From Desulfobacteraceae bacterium (GTDB taxonomy: Bacteria > Desulfobacterota > Desulfobacteria > Desulfobacterales > SURF-7), in assembly GCA_003599865.1 (NCBI GenBank), contig QZKS01000098.1:1-64000 (forward strand): a DNA stretch of 64,000 nucleotides, given 5' to 3'. A program made the position numbers and the translations under genes. This document shows, piece after piece, positions 52,781-63,273 of this stretch; positions within the stretch are counted from its first letter, which is position 1; every line of letters begins with the position of its first letter. The notes below the pieces were generated by a model that saw only the letters and a program-made list of their open reading frames with translations, was not told the DNA's origin and did no database searches.

Positions 52781-53857
52781 ATGATGGAGAAAAAAATACT
52801 GGTGACCGGCGGATCGGGTTTTATTGGTTCCAATTTTATCCGGCACACCCTGCAGATCCGGCCCGGATTTCAGATCCGGAACCTGGATGCATTGACCTAT
52901 GCGGGAAATCCGCTGAATCTGGAAAATCTGCCGGTGGATCACCAGGCCCGGTATGGTTTTATCCAGGGCGATATCTGTGATGCCCGATTCCTGAAAAACC
53001 TGTTCGAGCAGGAGACATTCGACGGGGTCATCCATTTTGCCGCCGAATCCCATGTGGACCGCTCCATTCATGGACCGGAAGCATTCATCAGAACCAATGT
53101 CAATGGAACCTTTCAATTGCTGGAAGCCTGCCTTGCCATGTGGAAGCAAAACGGCAGTCCTTCCGATTTCCGGTTTCTGCACATATCAACGGATGAGGTT
53201 TACGGAAGCCTCGGCAAAGAAGGGTATTTCACCGAAAAAACACCATATGATCCATCCAGTCCGTATTCCGCATCCAAGGCATCTTCCGATCATCTGGTAA
53301 AGGCATATCATCGAACCTTCGGACTTCCGGTTGTCGTGACAAACTGCTCCAATAATTACGGCCCGTATCAGTTTCCGGAAAAACTGATTCCCCTGATAAT
53401 CCTCAATATCATCGAACAAAAAGACCTGCCCGTATATGGAGACGGAAAAAATATCCGGGACTGGCTGTATGTGATCGATCACTGCGAGGCGCTGGTAACG
53501 GTTTTTCTCAAGGGAGTAATCGGCGAAACCTATAATATCGGGGGCGGGACCGAACTGGAAAATATCCGGATCGTTCATCTGCTTTGTGAACTGCTGGATG
53601 AAAAGCTGGGCCGATCCGGGAAGAACAGCAGCAAAAGTCTGATACGGTTTGTAACGGACAGACCCGGTCATGACCGCCGCTATGCCATCGATGCCTCTAA
53701 AATCGAGCGGGAGCTGGGCTGGAAAGCACGATTTGTTTTTTCAGAAGCGATCGCCCGGACCATTGACTGGTATATGGATCATATGGACTGGGTAAACTCG
53801 GTGCGAAGCGGTGACTACCGGAAGTGGATCGAGAATAACTACGGGAAACGAAAATAA
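52781..53857 (+). CDS. rfbB: dTDP-glucose 4,6-dehydratase
   Basis: 358 residues (a second ATG directly follows the first). NAD-binding [26 protein letters not shown], the catalytic TDE in [13 protein letters not shown]-x3-K in [12 protein letters not shown], and [14 protein letters not shown]. This is the second step of dTDP-L-rhamnose synthesis, removing water from dTDP-glucose to give the 4-keto-6-deoxy sugar. It begins the rfbB-A-C-D run, with an AGGAG ribosome site a few bases upstream. All family landmarks and the length fit. Confidence 0.96.
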
Positions 53858-53891
53858 TTTTCGCCGTCAAGATGAGAGGAGTGGAAGGTTT

Positions 53892-54776
53892 ATGAAGGGA
53901 ATTATTCTGGCGGGAGGCTCCGGCACCAGGCTGTATCCGATCACAAGGGTGGTCAGTAAACAGCTGTTGCCGGTTTATGACAAGCCCATGATATATTACC
54001 CCTTGTCTGTCCTGATGCTTGCAGGTATCCGGGATATCCTGATCATTTCAACACCGGAAGACCTGCCCAATTTCAGGAGACTTCTGGAAGACGGCTCCCA
54101 ATGGGGGATTTCTTTCACCTATGCGGTGCAGCCAAGTCCGGATGGCCTAGCCCAGGCGTTTACCATTGGAAAGGAGTTTATCGGAGATCAGAATGTCTGC
54201 CTGATCCTGGGAGATAATATTTTCTACGGGCATGGATTGATCGAACAGCTCCGGGATGCGCTTGCCAGAAAAGCCGGTGCCACTGTTTTCGGCTACTGGG
54301 TAAGAGATCCGGAGCGCTATGGTGTTGTTAAATTTGATCAAAACGGCCAGGCTGTCAATATTGTGGAAAAACCAAAGGAACCGCTCTCAAACTGGGCGGT
54401 AACCGGTCTTTATTTTTATGATAACCGGGTGGTGGATATCGCCTCAAACCTCAAGCCGTCTGCCAGGGGAGAACTGGAAATCACGGATGTCAACAAGACC
54501 TATCTGGAAATGGGGGAACTGTATGTTCAGAAGCTGGGGAGAGGAATTGCCTGGCTGGACACCGGTACACATAAAAGTCTGATTCAGGCATCCAATTTTA
54601 TCGAAGCCATTGAGCAGCGGCAGGGTCTGCGTGTTGCCTGTATTGATGAAATCGCCTACAAGATGGGATATATCAGCAAAGAGCAGGTGGAAGAGCTGGC
54701 CCGGACCCTGATTAAAAATCATTACGGGCAGTATTTGCTGGAAATGCTCAAACACGATGAGAAATTTATTTTATGA
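53892..54776 (+). CDS. rfbA: Glucose-1-phosphate thymidylyltransferase
   Basis: 294 residues from the ATG preceded by GGAAGG. An in-frame ATG at 53811 is inside rfbB and would add 27 residues unlike the family. The nucleotidyl-transferase signature [17 protein letters not shown] is at the start, then [33 protein letters not shown] with the metal-binding Asp, and [10 protein letters not shown]. It makes dTDP-glucose from dTTP and glucose-1-phosphate, the first step to rhamnose. Its stop overlaps the rfbC start by four bases. Confidence 0.97.
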
Positions 54777-55336
54777 AAGTGACATCAACCGATCTGAAAG
54801 AAGTGCTGCTCATAGAACCCAGGGTCTTTGCCGATAATCGCGGCTATTTCTATGAAGCCTATCACCGGGAACGGTATTTCGAAAACGGAATCCGCTCCAC
54901 GTTTATTCAGGACAATTTCTCCTATTCGGTTCAGGGCACCTTGCGGGGACTTCATTATCAGTCCCCCAAACCGCAGGCCAAGCTTGTCCAGATATTGCAG
55001 GGAGAGATATATGATATTGCCGTGGATATCCGCAAGGGGTCACCCACGTTCGGGAACTGGGTCGGTGTTTATCTGAGCGACCGGAACAAGCGGCAGTTAT
55101 TTATTCCCGAAGGATTTGCCCATGGGTTTGCGGTTCTGAGTCCGGTCGCGCTCTTTGCGTATAAATGCAGCGATTTGTTTTCGCCTGAGTGCGAGGGCGG
55201 TATCAAATGGAATGATCCGGATCTGGGAATCCGGTGGCCCCTGGACAAGCCGATCCTGTCTGAAAAGGATTCCGGATACCCTTGCCTGAAAGATATTGAA
55301 TCAGGCCGGCTGCCGGTCTATGGAGGGGACAGATGA
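54773..55336 (+). CDS. rfbC: dTDP-4-dehydrorhamnose 3,5-epimerase
   Basis: 187 residues, the usual length of the RmlC cupin. [33 protein letters not shown] with the catalytic His, [11 protein letters not shown] and [14 protein letters not shown] are all present. It epimerises C3 and C5 of the keto sugar. Overlaps of four bases on both sides (ATGA) show tight translational coupling with rfbA and rfbD. Confidence 0.96.
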
Positions 55337-56235
55337 CGATTCTGATTATCGGATGCAGGGGGCAGGTCGGGACCGAACTGGCCCTTCAGATGAAACAACG
55401 GGGCCGTGAAATCATTGCCGTGGATCTGCCGGAAATCGATATCACTGATTCATCATCCGTAAAAAATTACATTGCCCGTCCGGAAGTCAGCCTGGTTGTC
55501 AACGCCGCCGCTTACACGGCAGTGGACAGGGCGGAATCGGAAAGGGAACTCGCTTTTGCGGTAAACGCGCAAGGACCTGGTTTGATCGCCGAATCCTGCA
55601 GGATCGGAAACATTCCCCTGATCCATATATCAACGGATTATGTTTTTGATGGAACCAAGAGCAGTGCCTATGTGGAGACCGATCCGGTTTCTCCGGTCGG
55701 TATTTACGGGAAAAGCAAGGCTGCCGGCGATTCTCTGGTAGCAGGATGTCTTGAAAAATATATCATCCTCAGAACATCCTGGGTATGCAGCGCCCATGGT
55801 GCAAATTTTGTTAAAACCATGCTTCGTTTGGGCAATGAAAAAGAAACCATCCGGGTTGTCGACGATCAGAAAGGATGTCCCACCTTTGCCCATGATATTG
55901 CAGAGGCCATCGTAACGATCGCGGAAAAATACCTTGCCGAACAGGAATTACCGTGGGGATGTTATCATTATTGCGGAAAGGGGGAGACCACCTGGTTTGC
56001 GTTTGCCCAGGAAATTTTCAGGCAGGCAGGAGAGCGCCGGGAATTGAAGTTAAAATCCCTGCTGCCGATTCCATCCTCTGAATATCCCAGCCCCGTAAAA
56101 AGACCGATGAATTCCGTATTGAATTGCAGCAAGATCATCGAAAAATTCGGAATCCAGCCCAGGCCCTGGAAAGAAAGCCTGCAACAAACACTGAATGATC
56201 TGTATCTTCAGGAATCCGCCATTACATCTTCATAA
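55333..56235 (+). CDS. rfbD: dTDP-4-dehydrorhamnose reductase
   Basis: 300 residues. NAD(P)H-binding LIIGCRGQVGTELALQ, NAAAYTAVDRAESE, HISTDYVFDGTKSS and Y-x3-K in GIYGKSKAAGD; RTSWV and RVVDDQKGCPT are classic RmlD segments. It reduces the 4-keto group to give dTDP-L-rhamnose, the likely donor for the GT2 enzymes at 43574 and 46432. Last gene of the glycan cluster; a ~480-base spacer follows with no obvious terminator hairpin. Confidence 0.96.
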   Translation: MTILIIGCRGQVGTELALQMKQRGREIIAVDLPEIDITDSSSVKNYIARPEVSLVVNAAAYTAVDRAESERELAFAVNAQGPGLIAESCRIGNIPLIHISTDYVFDGTKSSAYVETDPVSPVGIYGKSKAAGDSLVAGCLEKYIILRTSWVCSAHGANFVKTMLRLGNEKETIRVVDDQKGCPTFAHDIAEAIVTIAEKYLAEQELPWGCYHYCGKGETTWFAFAQEIFRQAGERRELKLKSLLPIPSSEYPSPVKRPMNSVLNCSKIIEKFGIQPRPWKESLQQTLNDLYLQESAITSS

Positions 56236-56344
56236 CTCCTTCCAACCATCTCCCGTGTCCTTTTCATGAAAATCATCGACTCTTCCTTGTCTATTTTTCA
56301 GCAATAACCAATTGATCCACGGCTTGTTGATCCATCCGGCCGGT

Positions 56345-56521
56345 TTAATCCGTTGTGGTATAGGTGCAGGATATGCCTCTGGCCAGGATGCCCCGGATAT
56401 TGTCCAGAATATTACAGGCATCAAAACATTTGGGAAATTGGTCCCTATGCTCGCAATGTTTGCAAGGGCTTTGAATTAAAAAACCAATATCGAAATCGAA
56501 TGTATCTCGGTTTGTTGTCAT
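56345..56521 (-). CDS. Possible small Cys-rich protein
   Basis: A 58-residue minus-strand frame from ATG at 56521 (GTG at 56530 possible). It carries a compact cysteine cluster, CKHCEHRDQFPKCFDACNIL, with spacing C-x2-C-x8-C-x3-C, and a further Cys near the end (GISCTYTT). The pattern resembles small metal-binding proteins I associate with Desulfobacterota, but I cannot name a family. It occupies a region with no + strand gene and would be convergent with rfbD. The ribosome site is weak, so it is a candidate only. Confidence 0.4.
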   Translation of the reverse strand: MTTNRDTFDFDIGFLIQSPCKHCEHRDQFPKCFDACNILDNIRGILARGISCTYTTTD

Positions 56522-56587
56522 TTTATTCACCGGTCCGAGACTACCATATCATCGAAGGGTAAACAAGGCCAAATCGAATGCAGAAAG

Positions 56588-56626
56588 GGCTCAGGAATGA
56601 AAGGGCAAATTCAGCAAGCCTGAGCC
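56588..56626 (+). promoter_or_regulatory. 8-base inverted repeat upstream of the Hsp70 operon promoter
   Basis: GGCTCAGG (56588-56595) and CCTGAGCC (56619-56626) form a perfect inverted repeat with a 23-base loop, ending 9 bases before the -35 box at 56636. It does not match the CIRCE heat-shock operator. A binding site for an unknown regulator, or a terminator-like hairpin for incoming transcription, are both possible. Confidence 0.45.
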
Positions 56627-56635
56627 AAATGTTTC

Positions 56636-56664
56636 TTGACACTTCCGGCCGAAGCCCTTAGATT
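56636..56664 (+). promoter_or_regulatory. Sigma70-type promoter of the DUF2760-Hsp70 operon
   Basis: A consensus TTGACA (56636-56641), 17 bases, then TAGATT (56659-56664; 4 of 6). Transcription would start about 45 bases before the ATG at 56717, leaving a short leader with AAGGAG. No sigma32-like (CTTGAA/CCCCAT) pattern was seen. Confidence 0.55.
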
Positions 56665-56716
56665 TCACCTTTATTGCAATTCATCTTCCGGCATTCCGGG
56701 TAAGGAGAACCCCCAA

Positions 56717-57481
56717 ATGAATATAGGCAAGGCATATTCACGGACATCTTTTATCAGCATTTTTCTGGTGATCGTGATTCTTCTGGCATTGGTCGATTTC
56801 GCATTTTATTACGGCATGGATATGATTTTTTCCAAAATAACCATTTCCATGAAAGCCGGATCAGCAGGTCCCGAGCTGCCTGGTTTGATGGAAAAAATCA
56901 GCCGGATGGATATTTTGCTGCGAACCTATTTTGTACCGGTTTCCGCCGGAGTTTTTCTTTTGTTTGGACTGATGCTCTGGTTCTATCTGAAATCCGCTGT
57001 AAGAAAGCTTGCCAATCAGGCAGCAACTCCTTCGGCAAGAGAATCAAAATCGGATAGCGCCGCCCAAAAGGCTGCGGAAAAACAGAAAAAAGAATTGAGT
57101 GATCAGAGACTCTTCATACACCTCCTGTCTGTGTTTCAGCGTGAAGGAAGGCTGGTTGACTTTTTCTCCGAAAATCTGGATGAGTATGAAGATTCCCAGA
57201 TCGGTGCCGCCGTCAGAAACATTCATGAAAATTGTCAGAAAACTATTAATAAATATATGACATTAAAAGCAATTATCGATCAGAACGAGGGGGATAATGT
57301 CATTATCGAACCTGGATTTGATCCCAATGCCGTCAAACTGGTCGGTAATGTGGCCGGCGAGCCTCCTTTTAAAGGGATACTCCGACACCGGGGCTGGCAG
57401 GTTGCCAGGCTGGACCTTCCCAAGCTGTCCGATACCGGAAAACTGCAGGCCATCTCTCCGGCAGAAGTTGAGATTCAATAA
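56717..57481 (+). CDS. DUF2760-domain membrane-anchored protein
   Basis: 254 residues from the ATG with AAGGAG upstream; an earlier in-frame ATG at 56636 coincides with the promoter and is rejected. Two membrane segments (about 12-33 and 71-91) are joined by a short loop. A charged helical linker (93-130) follows, then the DUF2760 domain: FQREGRLVDFFSENLDEYED, IGAAVRNIHENCQK, DPNAVKLVGNVAGEPPFKG and LRHRGWQVARLDLP. The soluble part should face the cytoplasm. The function is undescribed. The constant neighbour is a pair of Hsp70 proteins, so a membrane platform or adaptor for them is a reasonable inference. Confidence 0.85.
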   Translation: MNIGKAYSRTSFISIFLVIVILLALVDFAFYYGMDMIFSKITISMKAGSAGPELPGLMEKISRMDILLRTYFVPVSAGVFLLFGLMLWFYLKSAVRKLANQAATPSARESKSDSAAQKAAEKQKKELSDQRLFIHLLSVFQREGRLVDFFSENLDEYEDSQIGAAVRNIHENCQKTINKYMTLKAIIDQNEGDNVIIEPGFDPNAVKLVGNVAGEPPFKGILRHRGWQVARLDLPKLSDTGKLQAISPAEVEIQ

Positions 57482-57505
57482 TATTTTCCACAAAGGAGTT
57501 GCCGT

Positions 57506-59338
57506 TTGTCTGACCCCGCATATATTATCGGTATTGACCTGGGTACCACCAATACGGTGGTTGCCTATACCGCAACAGAAGGTTTAAAAAAATCTCCTCC
57601 TGAAATCCATGTGTTTGATATACCGCAGGTTGTCAGTGAAGGAGTGGTCGAGACCCGGAATCACTTGCCCTCTTTTATCCTTATCCCTCAGGAACATCAG
57701 GTTTCACGGGAATCCCTGCATCTGCCATGGAAAAAGGAAGAACGGTTCTGTCTGGGAGAATTTGCGCGGGAACGCGGCAAAGAATTGCCGGATCATCTGA
57801 TTTCTTCGTCAAAATCATGGCTTTGTCATGAAATAGTGGACCGGAGCAAGGCGATCCTGCCGTGGAATTCCCATAAAGATCATTTTAAAATGTCTCCCAT
57901 TGAAGCCTCTTCCAAAATTCTGGAGCATATCCGCGATGCATGGAATCATACCATGGCTCATTCAGACCATCGCTGCCGGATTGAGGAACAGGAGATTTTC
58001 CTCACGGTGCCCGCCTCTTTTGATGCAATGGCAAGGGAGCTTACCGTCAAAGCAGCACAAATGGCCGGTCTTTCCAATTTTACCCTTCTGGAAGAACCCC
58101 AGGCGGCATTTTATGCATGGATTCAAAGCAATGGAGACAGATGGCGTGATGTTGTCAGGAAGGGGGATCTGATCATTGTTTGCGATATCGGAGGCGGAAC
58201 CAGCGACTTCAGCCTGATCAGGGTGTCGGAACAGCAGGGCGAGCTTGTTCTGGAACGAATCGCCGTCGGAGACCATCTTCTTGTCGGGGGAGACAATATG
58301 GATCTGGCCCTCGCATATACGGTGGCAAACAAGCTTTCCGGAACCGGGAAAAAGATCGATGCCTGGCAAATGCGCGGGTTGATGCACAGCTGCCGGATCG
58401 CAAAGGAAAAACTGCTTTCTGAAAATGGCCCGGAATCCTGCCCGATCAGCATATTGGGAAGAGGAAGCAGCCTGATCGGGAATACCATCAAAACCTCTCT
58501 GGACAGGGAAGAGGTGATAAAAGTCCTTGTCGACGGATTTTTCCCGTTCTGTGAAAAATCCGACAGGCCGGTCGGCAACCGAAAGATCGGGCTTCAGGAA
58601 CAGGGTCTTTCCTTTGAGGCAGATCCGGGGGTAACCAGACACCTGGCGAAATTTCTTTCCGGAAATGCCAATGATCCGATGAATACAAGGTTTCCGACGG
58701 CGGTGCTGTTCAATGGCGGCATCATGAAATCGGATTCGATTCGAAAACGGATCCTGAATATTCTTTCTGCCTGGAAACAGCAGGAATCCGACGGCTCCGG
58801 TAAAACCGAAACCACCCGTGAACTGCAATCCCATGATTTTGATCTTTCCGTGGCTAAAGGAGCCGCATATTATGGCCTTGCCGGACGGGGAGAAGGAGTA
58901 CGGATACGAGGCGGACTTGGCCGTTCCTATTACATCGGAATTGCCGCTTCCATGCCGGCTGTTCCGGGGATGCCGGCACCCATGAAAGCATTATGTGTGG
59001 CTCCTTTTGGAACGGAAGAAGGATCTTTGATCCGGATTGAGGATCAGGAATTTGTTACCATGATGGGAGAACCGATTCAATTCGATCTCCTGGGTTCATC
59101 GGTGCGGAAGGAAGATCAGGCCGGAATGATGATTGAAGACTGGAATGACGGAGAGATCGTACCGGTTGCCGCCATTGAAACCGTTCTGGAAGGCGATCAT
59201 GGAAAAAGCCTTCCCGTATTTGTCGAGATCGAAATTTCGGAAATCGGTACGTTGTCATTTCGATGCGTTTCACGGGAGGATGGCCGGAAATGGAAATTTG
59301 AATTCAATGTAAGGGAGAAAGAGAATCTTGCTGTCTGA
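57506..59338 (+). CDS. Divergent Hsp70-family protein, short form
   Basis: 610 residues from a TTG start with AAAGGAG eight bases upstream. The actin-like ATPase fold is complete: phosphate-1 loop IIGIDLGTTNTVVAYT (7-22), connector and phosphate-2 IIVCDIGGGTSDFSLI near 225, and adenosine motif VLFNGGIMKSDSIRKRI. Residues ~440-610 are a beta-rich region (IRGGLGRSYYIGIAAS, VFVEIEISEIGTLSFRC) in place of a typical DnaK peptide-binding domain and lid. It also carries SSKSWLCHEIVDRSKAILPW, shared with the next gene. ATP binding is expected; the client and co-chaperone are unknown. It overlaps the second Hsp70 gene by 11 bases. Confidence 0.9.
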   Translation: MSDPAYIIGIDLGTTNTVVAYTATEGLKKSPPEIHVFDIPQVVSEGVVETRNHLPSFILIPQEHQVSRESLHLPWKKEERFCLGEFARERGKELPDHLISSSKSWLCHEIVDRSKAILPWNSHKDHFKMSPIEASSKILEHIRDAWNHTMAHSDHRCRIEEQEIFLTVPASFDAMARELTVKAAQMAGLSNFTLLEEPQAAFYAWIQSNGDRWRDVVRKGDLIIVCDIGGGTSDFSLIRVSEQQGELVLERIAVGDHLLVGGDNMDLALAYTVANKLSGTGKKIDAWQMRGLMHSCRIAKEKLLSENGPESCPISILGRGSSLIGNTIKTSLDREEVIKVLVDGFFPFCEKSDRPVGNRKIGLQEQGLSFEADPGVTRHLAKFLSGNANDPMNTRFPTAVLFNGGIMKSDSIRKRILNILSAWKQQESDGSGKTETTRELQSHDFDLSVAKGAAYYGLAGRGEGVRIRGGLGRSYYIGIAASMPAVPGMPAPMKALCVAPFGTEEGSLIRIEDQEFVTMMGEPIQFDLLGSSVRKEDQAGMMIEDWNDGEIVPVAAIETVLEGDHGKSLPVFVEIEISEIGTLSFRCVSREDGRKWKFEFNVREKENLAV

Positions 59339-62099
59339 CGGAAATAAATACATCATCGGCATTGATCTCGGCACGACCAATTCGGCTGTTTCCTTTTTAG
59401 ATCTTGAATCCCGGGAAAAAGGCGAAGCCAAAAATATCCATCTGTTCCCTGTTCCCCAGCTTGTCGGTCCGGGGGAATGGAAAGCGCATGCGGTATTGCC
59501 GTCCTTTCTCTATATTCCGGGTGCATATGACATTTCCGATACGGCTGTTTCCATTCCATGGGAATCCGAAGTCACCCGTTTTGCCGGTGTTTTTGCAAGG
59601 GACCATGGTGTGAAAGTTCCGGCAAGACTGGTTGCATCGGCCAAGAGCTGGCTCTGCCATGGAGATGTTGATCGAAGAGCCGGGATATTGCCCTGGGGTT
59701 CCGGAGAGGATGTCCGGAAGGTTTCTCCTGTGGAAGCAACCAGCGCCTATCTCAACCATATTAAAAAAGCCTGGAATGTAAGATTCGGTGATGATGAGGA
59801 GCGGTATCTGGAAAACCAGATGATTATCCTGACGGTTCCGGCTTCCTTTGACGAGGTAGCCAGAGACCTTACCCTGGAAGCATCACGGATGGCGGGACTT
59901 CATCATGTCACCCTGATCGAAGAACCGCTGGCTGCTTTTTACAGTTGGCTGATTCAACATGAAAACAACTGGGACCGCTTTGTCAAACCCGACGAGCTGA
60001 TCCTGATCTGTGATGTGGGAGGAGGCACTACCGATTTTACCCTCATCTATCTGAGAGAAGTGGAAGGTTCTCCAAGGTTCGAACGCATTGCTGTCGGAGA
60101 CCATCTGATTCTCGGAGGGGATAACATCGATCTTGCATTGGCCCATCATGTGGAAACGGCTTCCGGCAGGAAAAAATTATCCTTGAATCAGGACCGATGG
60201 AAGGCTCTCTGCCACCAGTGCCGCCAGGCCAAGGAAAACATCTTCAACAACAAAACGGATTCTGAAAGAATTACGATCATGGGGGAGGGGCGAAGCCTGA
60301 TTGCCGGAACCCTTTCCGCCGAACTCCATCGGAAAGATCTGGAAAAAATTGTTCTGGAGGGCTTCTTTCCTCTTGTAGAGAAACAATCCGGACGATCCGT
60401 GGAGAAGCGGAAAGGCATTACGGAATTCGGCCTGCCCTATGAGCAGGAGCCTGCCATTACGCGTCACATCGGACAATTCCTGGAACGGCATGCCGAGGAT
60501 GTAAAGAGCATACTGGGACGAGCGCCGATTCCGGATCTGATCCTGTTTAACGGCGGGTCCCTGAAGTCCGGGGTCATTCAGGAACGGATACGACAGGCGA
60601 TTCGACACTGGTTTGGCTTAGATGACCCATCCGTTCCACGGATACTGGAAAACCCGGACCCGGATCTTGCGGTGGCCCTGGGCGCTTCCTACTACGGTCT
60701 GGTCAAAACCGGCAAAGGCGTCCGGGTGGGAAGCGGAAGCCCGCGCGGATATTATCTGGGTGTCGCCACGCAGGAAGGGGGCGGCAAAAAAAATGCCGTC
60801 TGTCTGGTGGAACGGGGCCTGGATGAAGGATCTCATATCGAATTGTCGGACAGACAATTTGAAGTGCTCACCAACCAGCCGGTTACCTTTGACGTTTACA
60901 GCTCCAGTTATCGATCCGGTGACAAAAAAGGGGATATTGTCGAGGTGGATGATTCCTTTTCCACTCTGCCGCCCATCCAGACCATCGTTCAATTCGGGAA
61001 AAAAGGCGTCAAAACAACACTTCCGGTTACGATTGAAGCCCACTACACGGAAATCGGAACGCTTGCCCTGTGGTGCAGTTCCCAGGTGAGCAAACACCGT
61101 TGGCGGCTTCAATTTCAATTAAGAACCCATGATGCGGAGACAGACGTCGCTGATACGGAAGTATTTGATTCCGAACTGATCGAAACAACCTGCCATGAAG
61201 TGAAGACGGCATTCATGAACAAAACCGGTAAAAAAGAGCTCGAGGGCTTGTCCAAAAAAATCTCCACCCTGATAGAGAGACCGAAAGAGGCCTGGCCTCT
61301 TTCTTTTATCCGGACCCTGTCGGACGAACTGATCAGGAACAGGTCATTGCGGAAGATTTCGGCCATCCACGAACATCGATGGCTCAATCTGGCAGGGTTT
61401 ACCATGCGGCCGGGATTTGGTGACGGCTTTGATGAACAGCGGATCAGGGTTTTATGGAAGGTCTATAACAAAGGAAGAATATTCCCCAATAACAGTCAGG
61501 TCGGATCGGAGTGGTGGATTTTGTGGCGGCGGATTGCCGGAGGCTTAACGCCTGGTCAGCAGAAGCAGTTTATACAGGATACAATACCGCTGCTGTTTCC
61601 CAAAAAAGGATCTGCCGCAAAATCCTCCCGGCAGCAGATCACCGAGATCTGGATGACTGTTGCCAACATGGAAAAGCTTCTCGTTAAAGACAAAATAAAA
61701 CTCGGCCGGCAGCTTGTCTCCGAACTGACCCCGAAAACCGCAAGCGCGCAGCTTTTCTGGGCCTTATCCCGAATCGGTGCCAGGGTTCTGCTGTACGGCT
61801 CGTCGGACCGGGTCATTCCGCCCGGAGAAATCCAGTCCTGGATCGAAGAGATCCTCATGAAAAACTGGCAGGACCCAGGACCGGTCGGGGCAGCCCTGAT
61901 TCAACTGGCAAGGAAAACAGGAGATAGAGCAAGGGATCTGGAATCCGGAATGCTGGATCAGATCATGATGTGGCTTTCGGAATATGAACTGTTTCCTTCC
62001 CGGATCAAGCTGCTGCAGGAAGTGGTACCCCTTGAAAAAAGGGAGCAGAGTGAGATGTTCGGAGAATCTTTGCCCACCGGCCTGGTGCTGTCAATCTGA
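59328..62099 (+). CDS. Divergent Hsp70-family protein, long form (DUF3731-type C-terminus)
   Basis: 923 residues from a TTG start with AAGGGAG upstream. The N-terminal part parallels the preceding protein (IIGIDLGTTNSAVSFL, SAKSWLCHGDVDRRAGILPW, LICDVGGGTTDFTLI, LFNGGSLKSGVIQERI), so the two arose by tandem duplication or co-evolved. After the beta region, about 290 extra C-terminal residues (from ~635) are mainly helical (AGFTMRPGFGDGFDEQRIRV, EWWILWRRIAGGLTPGQQ, SAQLFWALSRIGARVLLYG), matching the DUF3731 region of large Hsp70 relatives. This could be a substrate or partner platform. Likely translationally coupled to the short form. Confidence 0.9.
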   Translation: MLSDGNKYIIGIDLGTTNSAVSFLDLESREKGEAKNIHLFPVPQLVGPGEWKAHAVLPSFLYIPGAYDISDTAVSIPWESEVTRFAGVFARDHGVKVPARLVASAKSWLCHGDVDRRAGILPWGSGEDVRKVSPVEATSAYLNHIKKAWNVRFGDDEERYLENQMIILTVPASFDEVARDLTLEASRMAGLHHVTLIEEPLAAFYSWLIQHENNWDRFVKPDELILICDVGGGTTDFTLIYLREVEGSPRFERIAVGDHLILGGDNIDLALAHHVETASGRKKLSLNQDRWKALCHQCRQAKENIFNNKTDSERITIMGEGRSLIAGTLSAELHRKDLEKIVLEGFFPLVEKQSGRSVEKRKGITEFGLPYEQEPAITRHIGQFLERHAEDVKSILGRAPIPDLILFNGGSLKSGVIQERIRQAIRHWFGLDDPSVPRILENPDPDLAVALGASYYGLVKTGKGVRVGSGSPRGYYLGVATQEGGGKKNAVCLVERGLDEGSHIELSDRQFEVLTNQPVTFDVYSSSYRSGDKKGDIVEVDDSFSTLPPIQTIVQFGKKGVKTTLPVTIEAHYTEIGTLALWCSSQVSKHRWRLQFQLRTHDAETDVADTEVFDSELIETTCHEVKTAFMNKTGKKELEGLSKKISTLIERPKEAWPLSFIRTLSDELIRNRSLRKISAIHEHRWLNLAGFTMRPGFGDGFDEQRIRVLWKVYNKGRIFPNNSQVGSEWWILWRRIAGGLTPGQQKQFIQDTIPLLFPKKGSAAKSSRQQITEIWMTVANMEKLLVKDKIKLGRQLVSELTPKTASAQLFWALSRIGARVLLYGSSDRVIPPGEIQSWIEEILMKNWQDPGPVGAALIQLARKTGDRARDLESGMLDQIMMWLSEYELFPSRIKLLQEVVPLEKREQSEMFGESLPTGLVLSI

Positions 62100-62148: not shown

Positions 62149-63273
62149 TTGAAATTTCTGTTTATCGAACCCTTTTACGGCGGCTCCCACAAAGACTTTG
62201 CCGATGGCCTGACCCGGTATTCCCGTTTTGAGATTGATCTGGTTACGCTGCCGGCCAGGTTCTGGAAATGGCGGATGCGCGGCGCGGCACTGTATTTTTA
62301 TCGGAAAATACCGTCATTTGATGCATACACCGGGCTGATCACCAGCGGCCTGATGAGTCTGTCCGATTTAAAAGCACTTTGCGGAGGGCGATTGCCGCCG
62401 TCAATCGTATACCTTCATGAGAATCAACTGACCTATCCGCTTGCTCCCGGTGAACAGATGGACTATCAGTTCGGCTTCACCGATATCACGACCGCTCTTT
62501 CCGCAGACCGGATCGTATTCAATTCCCACACCCATTACCGCTCTTTTTTTTCCCACCTCCCCGGATTCATCAATATGATGCCGGAGTTCACACCCAAATG
62601 GGTGATCCATGAAATACAGAAAAAGGCCGGTGTGATCTATCCGGGATGCCATTATCCGGCGGATGTTACCCTGCACGATCGCAAGCCCGGCAAACCGCCG
62701 CTGATTATATGGAATCACCGGTGGGAGTTTGATAAAAAACCGGAAGTTTTTTTTCAGGCTCTCTCGTTTCTGATGGAAAAAGGAGCCGACTTCCGGGTCG
62801 CCCTTCTCGGTGAGCACTATCAGCGTGTTCCTTCGGTGTTTTCGGATGCAAAGAAAAAATTCGGGGACCGGATTATCCGGTATGGTTATGTGGATTGCCG
62901 ATCAGAATATTACAACTGGCTCTCCAGAGGTGATATTGTCGTCAGCACGGCGGATCAGGAAAATTTCGGAATATCCATTATCGAGGCAATCCGCCACGGG
63001 TGTATCCCCCTTGTTCCCCGGCGGCTATCCTATCCGGAAATTCTGCCGGACGAATTCCATCCTTTGTTTTTATATGAGAATCCGAATGACCTTTTTGAAA
63101 AACTCCTGGCAATGGTTCTTTGTCCGGAACCGTTTTTTCCTCACCGGAAAGGTCTTTCCGAAAGCATGAAAAAGTTTGCATGGGAAAATCAGATTGTCCT
63201 GTTTGACGAGATGCTGGATAAACTTACTTGTACTGTAAATTCTGAAAAACAGCGATATCCCTCACCGGGATGA
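62149..63273 (+). CDS. DUF3524 glycosyltransferase (tRNA-queuosine mannosyltransferase family)
   Basis: 374 residues from a TTG start, with AAGAGG five bases upstream. The N-terminal domain is diagnostic: FLFIEPFYGGSHKDFADGL, then LPARFWKWRMRGAALYF, YLHENQLTYPL and ADRIVFNSHTHYRSFF, as in human GTDC1/QTMAN. A GT-B C-terminal half follows (LIIWNHRWEFDKKPEVFFQA, DIVVSTADQENFGISIIEAI with the EX7E-type region). The eukaryotic enzyme adds mannose to queuosine at the tRNA wobble base. Whether bacterial members do the same is not established to my knowledge. A 49-base gap follows the long Hsp70, so it may be in the same transcript. Confidence 0.88.
   Translation: MKFLFIEPFYGGSHKDFADGLTRYSRFEIDLVTLPARFWKWRMRGAALYFYRKIPSFDAYTGLITSGLMSLSDLKALCGGRLPPSIVYLHENQLTYPLAPGEQMDYQFGFTDITTALSADRIVFNSHTHYRSFFSHLPGFINMMPEFTPKWVIHEIQKKAGVIYPGCHYPADVTLHDRKPGKPPLIIWNHRWEFDKKPEVFFQALSFLMEKGADFRVALLGEHYQRVPSVFSDAKKKFGDRIIRYGYVDCRSEYYNWLSRGDIVVSTADQENFGISIIEAIRHGCIPLVPRRLSYPEILPDEFHPLFLYENPNDLFEKLLAMVLCPEPFFPHRKGLSESMKKFAWENQIVLFDEMLDKLTCTVNSEKQRYPSPG

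Follow-up and report, generated by a model that had tools for sequence, protein, structure and literature searches.

Do two divergent Hsp70s and a membrane protein of the DUF2760 family, encoded side by side in a Desulfobacteraceae bacterium, constitute an Hsp70 machine of their own? The three genes lie in the window analysed here, a stretch of 64,000 nucleotides that comprises bases 1–64000 of one contig (QZKS01000098.1) of a 5.0 Mb draft genome. A first-pass annotation, made from the sequence alone, had taken them as one co-directional unit, and Pfam agrees, identifying a DUF2760 protein (PF10816) followed by two divergent Hsp70s (PF00012), here termed HspA and HspB. The reading frames of the two Hsp70s share 11 bases (59328–59338), as first described. 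The genes are arranged as follows.

56717–57481, plus strand: DUF2760 gene, 254 amino acids, ATG start (PF10816, E 4.3e-49)
57506–59338, plus strand: HspA gene, 610 amino acids, TTG start (PF00012, E 1.2e-18; alignment to DnaK)
59328–62099, plus strand: HspB gene, 923 amino acids (PF00012, E 7.4e-20; PF12531, E 2.1e-86)

On balance, we lean towards the reading that these genes form a dedicated Hsp70-type machine, separate from DnaK, HscA, and HscC, with the roles proposed below. The doubt in this reading lies mostly in the roles of the parts and less in their belonging together.

DUF2760 and HspB co-occur even where unlinked

HspB is distinguished by a C-terminal DUF3731 domain (PF12531), which served to trace it in genomes. 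Among 247 Desulfobacterota genomes, DUF3731 occurs in 29 and DUF2760 in 30, with both present in 28, and the same 18 taxonomic families hold the two domains. Assembly completeness in the three genomes with only one of the domains is 85, 67, and 62%. Among 249 Pseudomonadota genomes, 18 contain DUF3731 and 19 contain DUF2760, 18 of them shared. The discordant genome (G288) encodes DUF2760 and HspA, ending 85 bases from the contig edge where HspB would follow. Pooling the 496 genomes gives 46 with both domains, 4 discordant (3 and 1), and 446 with neither, and a Fisher p of ~4e-60 that is no true probability, since genomes sharing ancestry are not independent samples. Most genomes have none of the three genes.

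The association extends to further lineages. Exactly one DUF2760 is present in each of 16 genomes accessed via named loci, which represent Desulfobacteraceae, Burkholderiaceae, Chromatiaceae, Vibrionaceae, Kuenenia, Lentisphaerae, Verrucomicrobia, Acidobacteria, Riflebacteria, Cloacimonadota, Planctomycetia, Rhodopila, and others; the genomes in this set reached through HspA only also carry DUF3731. DUF2760 likewise accompanies DUF3731 in all ten plasmid or second-chromosome records that contain the latter. The complete unit resides on two conjugative Bradyrhizobium plasmids (NZ_CP088103.1 and NZ_CP121651.1), in one of them followed by groES–groEL, with no DnaJ or GrpE listed beside it on either, and it is also found on large replicons of Burkholderia and Caballeronia.

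Where linked, across many phyla and on conjugative plasmids too, the genes are always ordered DUF2760–HspA–HspB (34 loci), or DUF2760–HspB where HspA is missing, often with overlaps of 1–4 bases. The first-pass annotation had proposed a co-occurrence check and had named frequent separation of the genes as counting against a joint system. Separation is indeed frequent: in 10 of the 28 Desulfobacterota genomes, DUF2760 and HspB are either on different contigs or widely spaced, and in single-contig genomes the distance reaches 250 kb (G161) or more than 500 kb (G204). Yet both genes are retained in every case, and the near-perfect co-occurrence supports the undescribed three-component Hsp70 system that had been suggested. 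The protein distance matrices of DUF2760, HspA, and HspB also correlate with one another (r 0.87–0.94; permutation maximum 0.25), in line with joint inheritance.

HspA is the least constant member, being absent from at least five genomes in which DUF2760 and HspB are retained (G134, G204, G155, G228, and G257). The gene distribution shows DUF2760 and HspB to be inherited as a unit across phyla and, since they co-occur even where unlinked, a shared function is favoured.

HspA and HspB form a divergent Hsp70 pair

Both proteins exceed the Pfam cut-off for PF00012, and profile comparison finds that their closest solved relatives are all DnaK/Hsp70 proteins. On the HscA and DnaK models of NCBIfam, they score 64–92 bits against cut-offs of 620–822, and NCBIfam provides no equivalog for DUF2760, HspA, or HspB. 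The nearest named relatives of HspB are from Desulfobacteraceae. The host genome also carries two ordinary DnaKs elsewhere.

In a tree of 68 sequences, every HspB falls into one group with support of 100, and HspA makes up the remainder of a shared block. A very long branch, again with support of 100, separates this block from DnaK, HscA, and HscC, and neither protein is placed within any of those three branches. The tree method warns of long branches, leaving the depth of the split unsure; the separation of HspA from HspB is unaffected by the outgroup. Both groups span several phyla, and the duplication therefore predates their spread. By the tree, a single ancient duplication gave rise to the HspA and HspB paralogues. 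The heteromeric Hsp70 machine proposed in the first-pass annotation fits this duplication, but HspA is dispensable, with at least five genomes doing without it.

Alignment to DnaK assigns residues ~1–465 of HspA to the Hsp70 nucleotide-binding domain (NBD) and residues ~473–610 to a putative β-sandwich substrate-binding domain (SBDβ). The C-terminus of HspA coincides with the end of SBDβ, and the protein has no α-helical lid (SBDα), which bears out the earlier description of this Hsp70 as lacking the standard DnaK lid. HspB has DUF3731 in place of the lid. The predicted structure of HspB residues 466–923 (mean predicted local distance difference test score, pLDDT, 86.6) contains a ten-strand SBDβ, followed by an all-helical domain. 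In a Foldseek search, the SBDβ model matches the substrate-binding domains of DnaK/Hsp70 with a probability of 1.00, though with E values of ~1e-3. The two C-terminal parts of HspB map as follows.

60744–61128, plus strand: SBDβ of HspB, ~residues 473–600, ten strands in the predicted model
61359–62090, plus strand: DUF3731 of HspB, predicted armadillo/HEAT-like α-solenoid (PF12531; VIA-align)

The ATPase site is kept and the J-domain contacts are lost

Key residues were checked by aligning HspA and HspB sequences to E. coli DnaK. Residues D8, T11, K70, E171, D194, T199, and D201 of DnaK are kept in all aligned HspA and HspB proteins, from which we infer that both bind and hydrolyse ATP. A segment shared by the two proteins, SxKSWLCH..VDR..ILPW, had been described as rare. 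It is common to both Hsp70s, but corresponds to a diverged equivalent of DnaK 70-KRLIGR, and its lysine is the invariant catalytic K70. In the window, the alignment locates this segment twice.

57806–57865, plus strand: HspA segment SSKSWLCHEIVDRSKAILPW, counterpart of DnaK K70-RLIGR, with catalytic lysine K103
59637–59696, plus strand: HspB segment SAKSWLCHGDVDRRAGILPW, counterpart of DnaK K70-RLIGR, with lysine K106

In place of the DnaK interdomain linker, V389-L390-L391-L392-D393, all HspA and HspB proteins have polar and glycine residues of the R-I-R-G-G or R-V-G-S-G type. In DnaK numbering, R167 is mostly T, and also L or S; N170 is always E; and V218 is always R. Residues of the peptide groove such as V436 are not conserved. 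In DnaK, R167 is bonded by the aspartate (D35) of the J-domain HPD motif, the HPD histidine contacts L391 of the linker, and changes in the linker or in D393 abolish linker-stimulated ATPase activity (PMC8215388). Because the linker and the J-contact residues are lost, canonical J-domain coupling of HspA and HspB is unlikely.

DUF3731 is predicted to be an armadillo/HEAT-like solenoid

Residues 678–921 of HspB match PF12531, DUF3731 or 'DNA-K related protein', with 290.3 bits (cut-off 25). The helical extension of about 290 residues recognized in the first-pass annotation is indeed helical, spanning about 250 residues, but it was already a curated Pfam domain. VIA-align superimposes the DUF3731 model on a designed armadillo protein with a Z score of 14.5 over 252 aligned residues (root mean square deviation, rmsd, 5.2), and helical repeats can score Z ~13 without relationship. 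Other matches include CAND1, importin, and β-catenin; the alignments to armadillo and HEAT solenoids span 252–265 residues with an rmsd of ~5. The domain is thus predicted to be an armadillo/HEAT-like solenoid, and nothing narrower is claimed.

Armadillo proteins of the HspBP1/Sil1 family act on Hsp70s as exchange factors in eukaryotes, wrapping their concave face around lobe IIB of the NBD (PMC4753570). For this reason, DUF3731 is a better candidate for an exchange factor than DUF2760, for which that role, offered in the first-pass annotation, is unsupported. A profile search of DUF3731 against the Protein Data Bank (PDB) returned no credible match, and no solved exchange factor matches it by sequence. 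HspBP1 and Sil1 structures are not among the 50 VIA-align matches listed, which excludes nothing.

DUF2760 combines a conserved domain with a variable anchor

The DUF2760 protein matches PF10816 with 165.9 bits (cut-off 25) and consists of two predicted transmembrane segments and a C-terminal domain.

56750–56806, plus strand: first predicted transmembrane segment, residues 12–30 (hydropathy; model helix 9–47)
56912–56968, plus strand: second predicted transmembrane segment, residues 66–84 (hydropathy; model helix 55–102)
57110–57472, plus strand: conserved DUF2760 domain, residues 132–252 (PF10816; pLDDT mostly >90 over 141–230)

The C-terminal ~120 residues are conserved and the N-terminal part is not. 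Residues Q141, R145, D148, F149, D159, G163, E191, G210, G220, H224, G226, W227, and E250 are invariant in both alignments. The protein had been called a two-pass membrane protein; two segments are predicted here and in Desulfobacterota generally, but topology is lineage-specific, with one hydrophobic segment in most gammaproteobacterial proteins and none in some other groups. Proteins without such a segment have a short, amphipathic and hydrophobic stretch at their start. An anchor that varies while the attached domain stays constant is consistent with a tether. The anchoring role first suggested is plausible, without two-pass topology being general.

No J-domain is found in DUF2760: a Pfam search at E 0.001 gives PF10816 only, and the invariant columns contain no HPD. 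A profile of the family against PDB sequences yielded only chance matches to helical hairpins.

A proposed mechanism and its alternatives

In the favoured model, DUF2760 would dock HspA and HspB at the inner membrane through its variable N-terminal anchor and would assume the recruiting role held elsewhere by J-domain proteins. HspA would act as a lid-less client-binding subunit. HspB would partner HspA in the manner of Hsp110, with its C-terminal solenoid replacing the lid and possibly serving as a built-in nucleotide-exchange or client-binding arm. Because HspA can be lost, HspB and DUF2760 may represent the minimal machine. Recruitment by DUF2760, together with a built-in arm in HspB, would account for the unit having neither DnaJ nor GrpE beside it. 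The HspA/HspB pair is probably membrane-docked and probably does not rely on DnaJ and GrpE as other Hsp70s do. Membrane or membrane-proximal proteins would be the likeliest clients, by way of a guess. A more ambitious and tentative form of the model sees here a further class of bacterial Hsp70 machine, composed of an obligate DUF2760–HspB core and usually HspA, and working at the membrane without J-protein or GrpE, where DUF2760 replaces the J-protein and DUF3731 provides an exchange or lid module.

Several points weigh against the model. DUF2760 has no transmembrane segment in Burkholderiaceae, Acidobacteria, Verrucomicrobia, and Cloacimonadota, and docking may not be universal. Its fold has no match in the PDB by Foldseek (best E ~1), and the VIA-align rows for its model mainly cover the transmembrane hairpin, with no fold match. 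Solenoid folds are common, and it is analogy that suggests nucleotide exchange by DUF3731. Linked operons are co-inherited for reasons besides complex formation, and genomes that are related do not count as independent. Lastly, seven J-domain proteins and one GrpE encoded elsewhere in the genome could serve in trans.

This last point underlies the best-surviving alternative, in which both Hsp70s are of the ordinary client-specific kind and rely on a J-domain protein and GrpE borrowed from elsewhere in the genome, and DUF2760 is a membrane client or client adaptor. As stated in the first-pass annotation, no DnaJ or GrpE gene is nearby; the only GrpE of the host is on contig C30 and its seven J-domain proteins are all on other contigs, available for borrowing. 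The intact catalytic residues of HspA and HspB suit such a scheme, and HscC with membrane-anchored DjlB and DjlC is a precedent for an Hsp70 at the membrane (PMC8215388). However, the docking residues and the hydrophobic linker are gone in every HspA and HspB examined. Moreover, no J-domain gene recurs near the unit (a J-domain frame is present at 2 of ~70 loci), and the conjugative plasmids carry it with no DnaJ or GrpE listed alongside. Borrowing is considered unlikely, though it is the most probable of the alternatives.

It is less probable still that HspA and HspB are actin/MreB-like or sensor ATPases, acting through DUF2760 as a nucleotide switch for a scaffold or for membrane regulation, with a purely structural SBDβ. 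Weak matches to MreB/Mbl (E 1e-6 to 3e-7), the loss of the linker required for DnaK allostery, and the altered groove residues such as V436 are in keeping with this idea, but Hsp70 models score far above MreB, the solved relatives closest by profile are all DnaK/Hsp70, and both paralogues have SBDβ across phyla, the modelled one matching Hsp70 domains as described above. A cassette brought together by chance or only loosely linked, with no function in common and spread by operon transfer, could account for the plasmid copies, which reflect horizontal transfer, and for the many genomes devoid of all three genes, but is very improbable, and already disfavoured, given the near-perfect co-occurrence in two phyla and the retention of DUF2760 and HspB at distances of 250 kb and beyond.

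Coding start, promoter, and neighbouring genes

The unit had been taken to start at 56636, which is actually the position of a TTGACA hexamer. The DUF2760 coding sequence most likely begins at ATG 56717, 9 bases after AAGGAG (56702–56707); the TTG start of HspA at 57506 is likewise preceded by AAGGAG.

56636–56664, plus strand: promoter-like site TTGACA-17-TAGATT, 10/12 matches, 5' of DUF2760

This site contains the sole plus-strand TTGACA in the 481-bp intergenic gap (56236–56716) and is well placed. The claim that it drives the unit is plausible and goes no further, because such sites are no commoner here than in shuffled sequence (5 observed in the region versus 6.0 ± 2.5).

The unit is flanked by rmlD on one side and a tRNA-queuosine mannosyltransferase gene on the other. 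The dTDP-rhamnose genes (53811–56235) stop 481 bases 5' of DUF2760; they include rmlD (55333–56235, by Pfam and NCBIfam), and two frames ahead of it resemble rmlA and rmlC. The tRNA-queuosine α-mannosyltransferase-like gene (62149–63273; PF12038, E 2e-58) is on the same strand, 50 bases 3' of HspB, and does not reappear beside the unit in related genomes.

The wider neighbourhood of the unit contains no consistent extra gene, except in one Desulfobacterota sub-clade. At five loci of this sub-clade (L127, L118, L111, L121, and L124), a membrane protein of ~155 residues, DUF3592-looking, is encoded directly 3' of an unlinked HspB, slightly overlapping it at four of them, and is a possible further partner. 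At five others (L119, L122, L125, L128, and L130), an unlinked DUF2760 follows a hisB-like gene and a protein of ~670 residues that looks by eye like an RNB ribonuclease, forming an alternative conserved context. In family f10 (L104 and L102), a gene that by eye resembles acyl-CoA synthetases lies between HspA and HspB, which are split by 3.5 and 9.3 kb. In Cupriavidus sp. UYMMa02A (L160), each of the three genes is split into several frames, reflecting either a decaying copy or poor assembly.

Two other assignments were considered and rejected. A defence system is indicated by nothing beyond weak, NBD-level matches to a PADLOC candidate (PDC-M61B, E 5e-5 and 1.5e-6), with none for DUF2760. 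As for a phage origin, DUF2760 has no PHROG, and the PHROG matches of the Hsp70s are at the level of the NBD.

Comparison with known Hsp70 systems

Both domains are already known to Pfam, and the proteins are annotated as 'Hsp70 family protein'. No paper on DUF2760, DUF3731, or their Pfam accessions was found among the open-access papers searched, although the classification of prokaryotic Hsp70s and J-proteins by Barriot et al. 2020 may describe them. What may be new is DUF2760–HspA–HspB as a probable Hsp70 machine of its own, of which no description was found. An ancient, multi-phylum Hsp70 pair that has lost its J-contacts and allosteric linker while keeping the catalytic site would reveal the extent to which the Hsp70 cycle can be remodelled. 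Two domains so far without a function would become parts of one system, and three small genes offer a clear genetic and biochemical test.

A recent review names three types of prokaryotic Hsp70, DnaK, HscA, and HscC (PMC8215388), and according to another GrpE is the only known type of bacterial exchange factor (PMC4753570). HspA and HspB resemble DnaK of the DnaK/DnaJ/GrpE system in having an NBD with all tested catalytic residues, followed by SBDβ in the same order. They differ in lacking the VLLLDV linker and the J-contacts, in the lidless state of HspA, and in the very long branch to DnaK. In addition, each operon encodes two obligately different paralogues and no J-protein or GrpE partner gene.

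The HscC–DjlB/DjlC system of E. coli likewise has a specialised Hsp70 whose membrane-anchored partners are encoded close by. Those partners are J-domain proteins, however, whereas DUF2760 has no J-domain in Pfam. HscC is also a single Hsp70 that has a better-kept linker and groups with DnaK and HscA in the tree.

Yeast Ssz1/Zuotin, the ribosome-associated complex (RAC), and Ssb likewise comprise an Hsp70 pair, one member of which is without a normal lid, and a dedicated partner. RAC is ribosome-bound and J-protein dependent, and has no homology to DUF2760.

The predicted armadillo/HEAT-like solenoid of HspB, ~250 residues long and linked with an Hsp70, recalls HspBP1, Fes1, and Sil1, with an armadillo domain of about 260 residues in HspBP1/Sil1, but folds of this kind are generic. 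In contrast to those proteins, DUF3731 is bacterial and fused to the Hsp70 itself, and its sequence matches none of the solved exchange factors.

The eukaryotic Hsp70–Hsp110 pair is of separate origin, Hsp110 has a helical bundle where HspB has the ~250-residue solenoid of DUF3731, and the pairing of HspA with HspB is putative. The likeness lies in the overall design, as both consist of two related Hsp70-fold proteins, one of them longer at the C-terminus, that are thought to cooperate.

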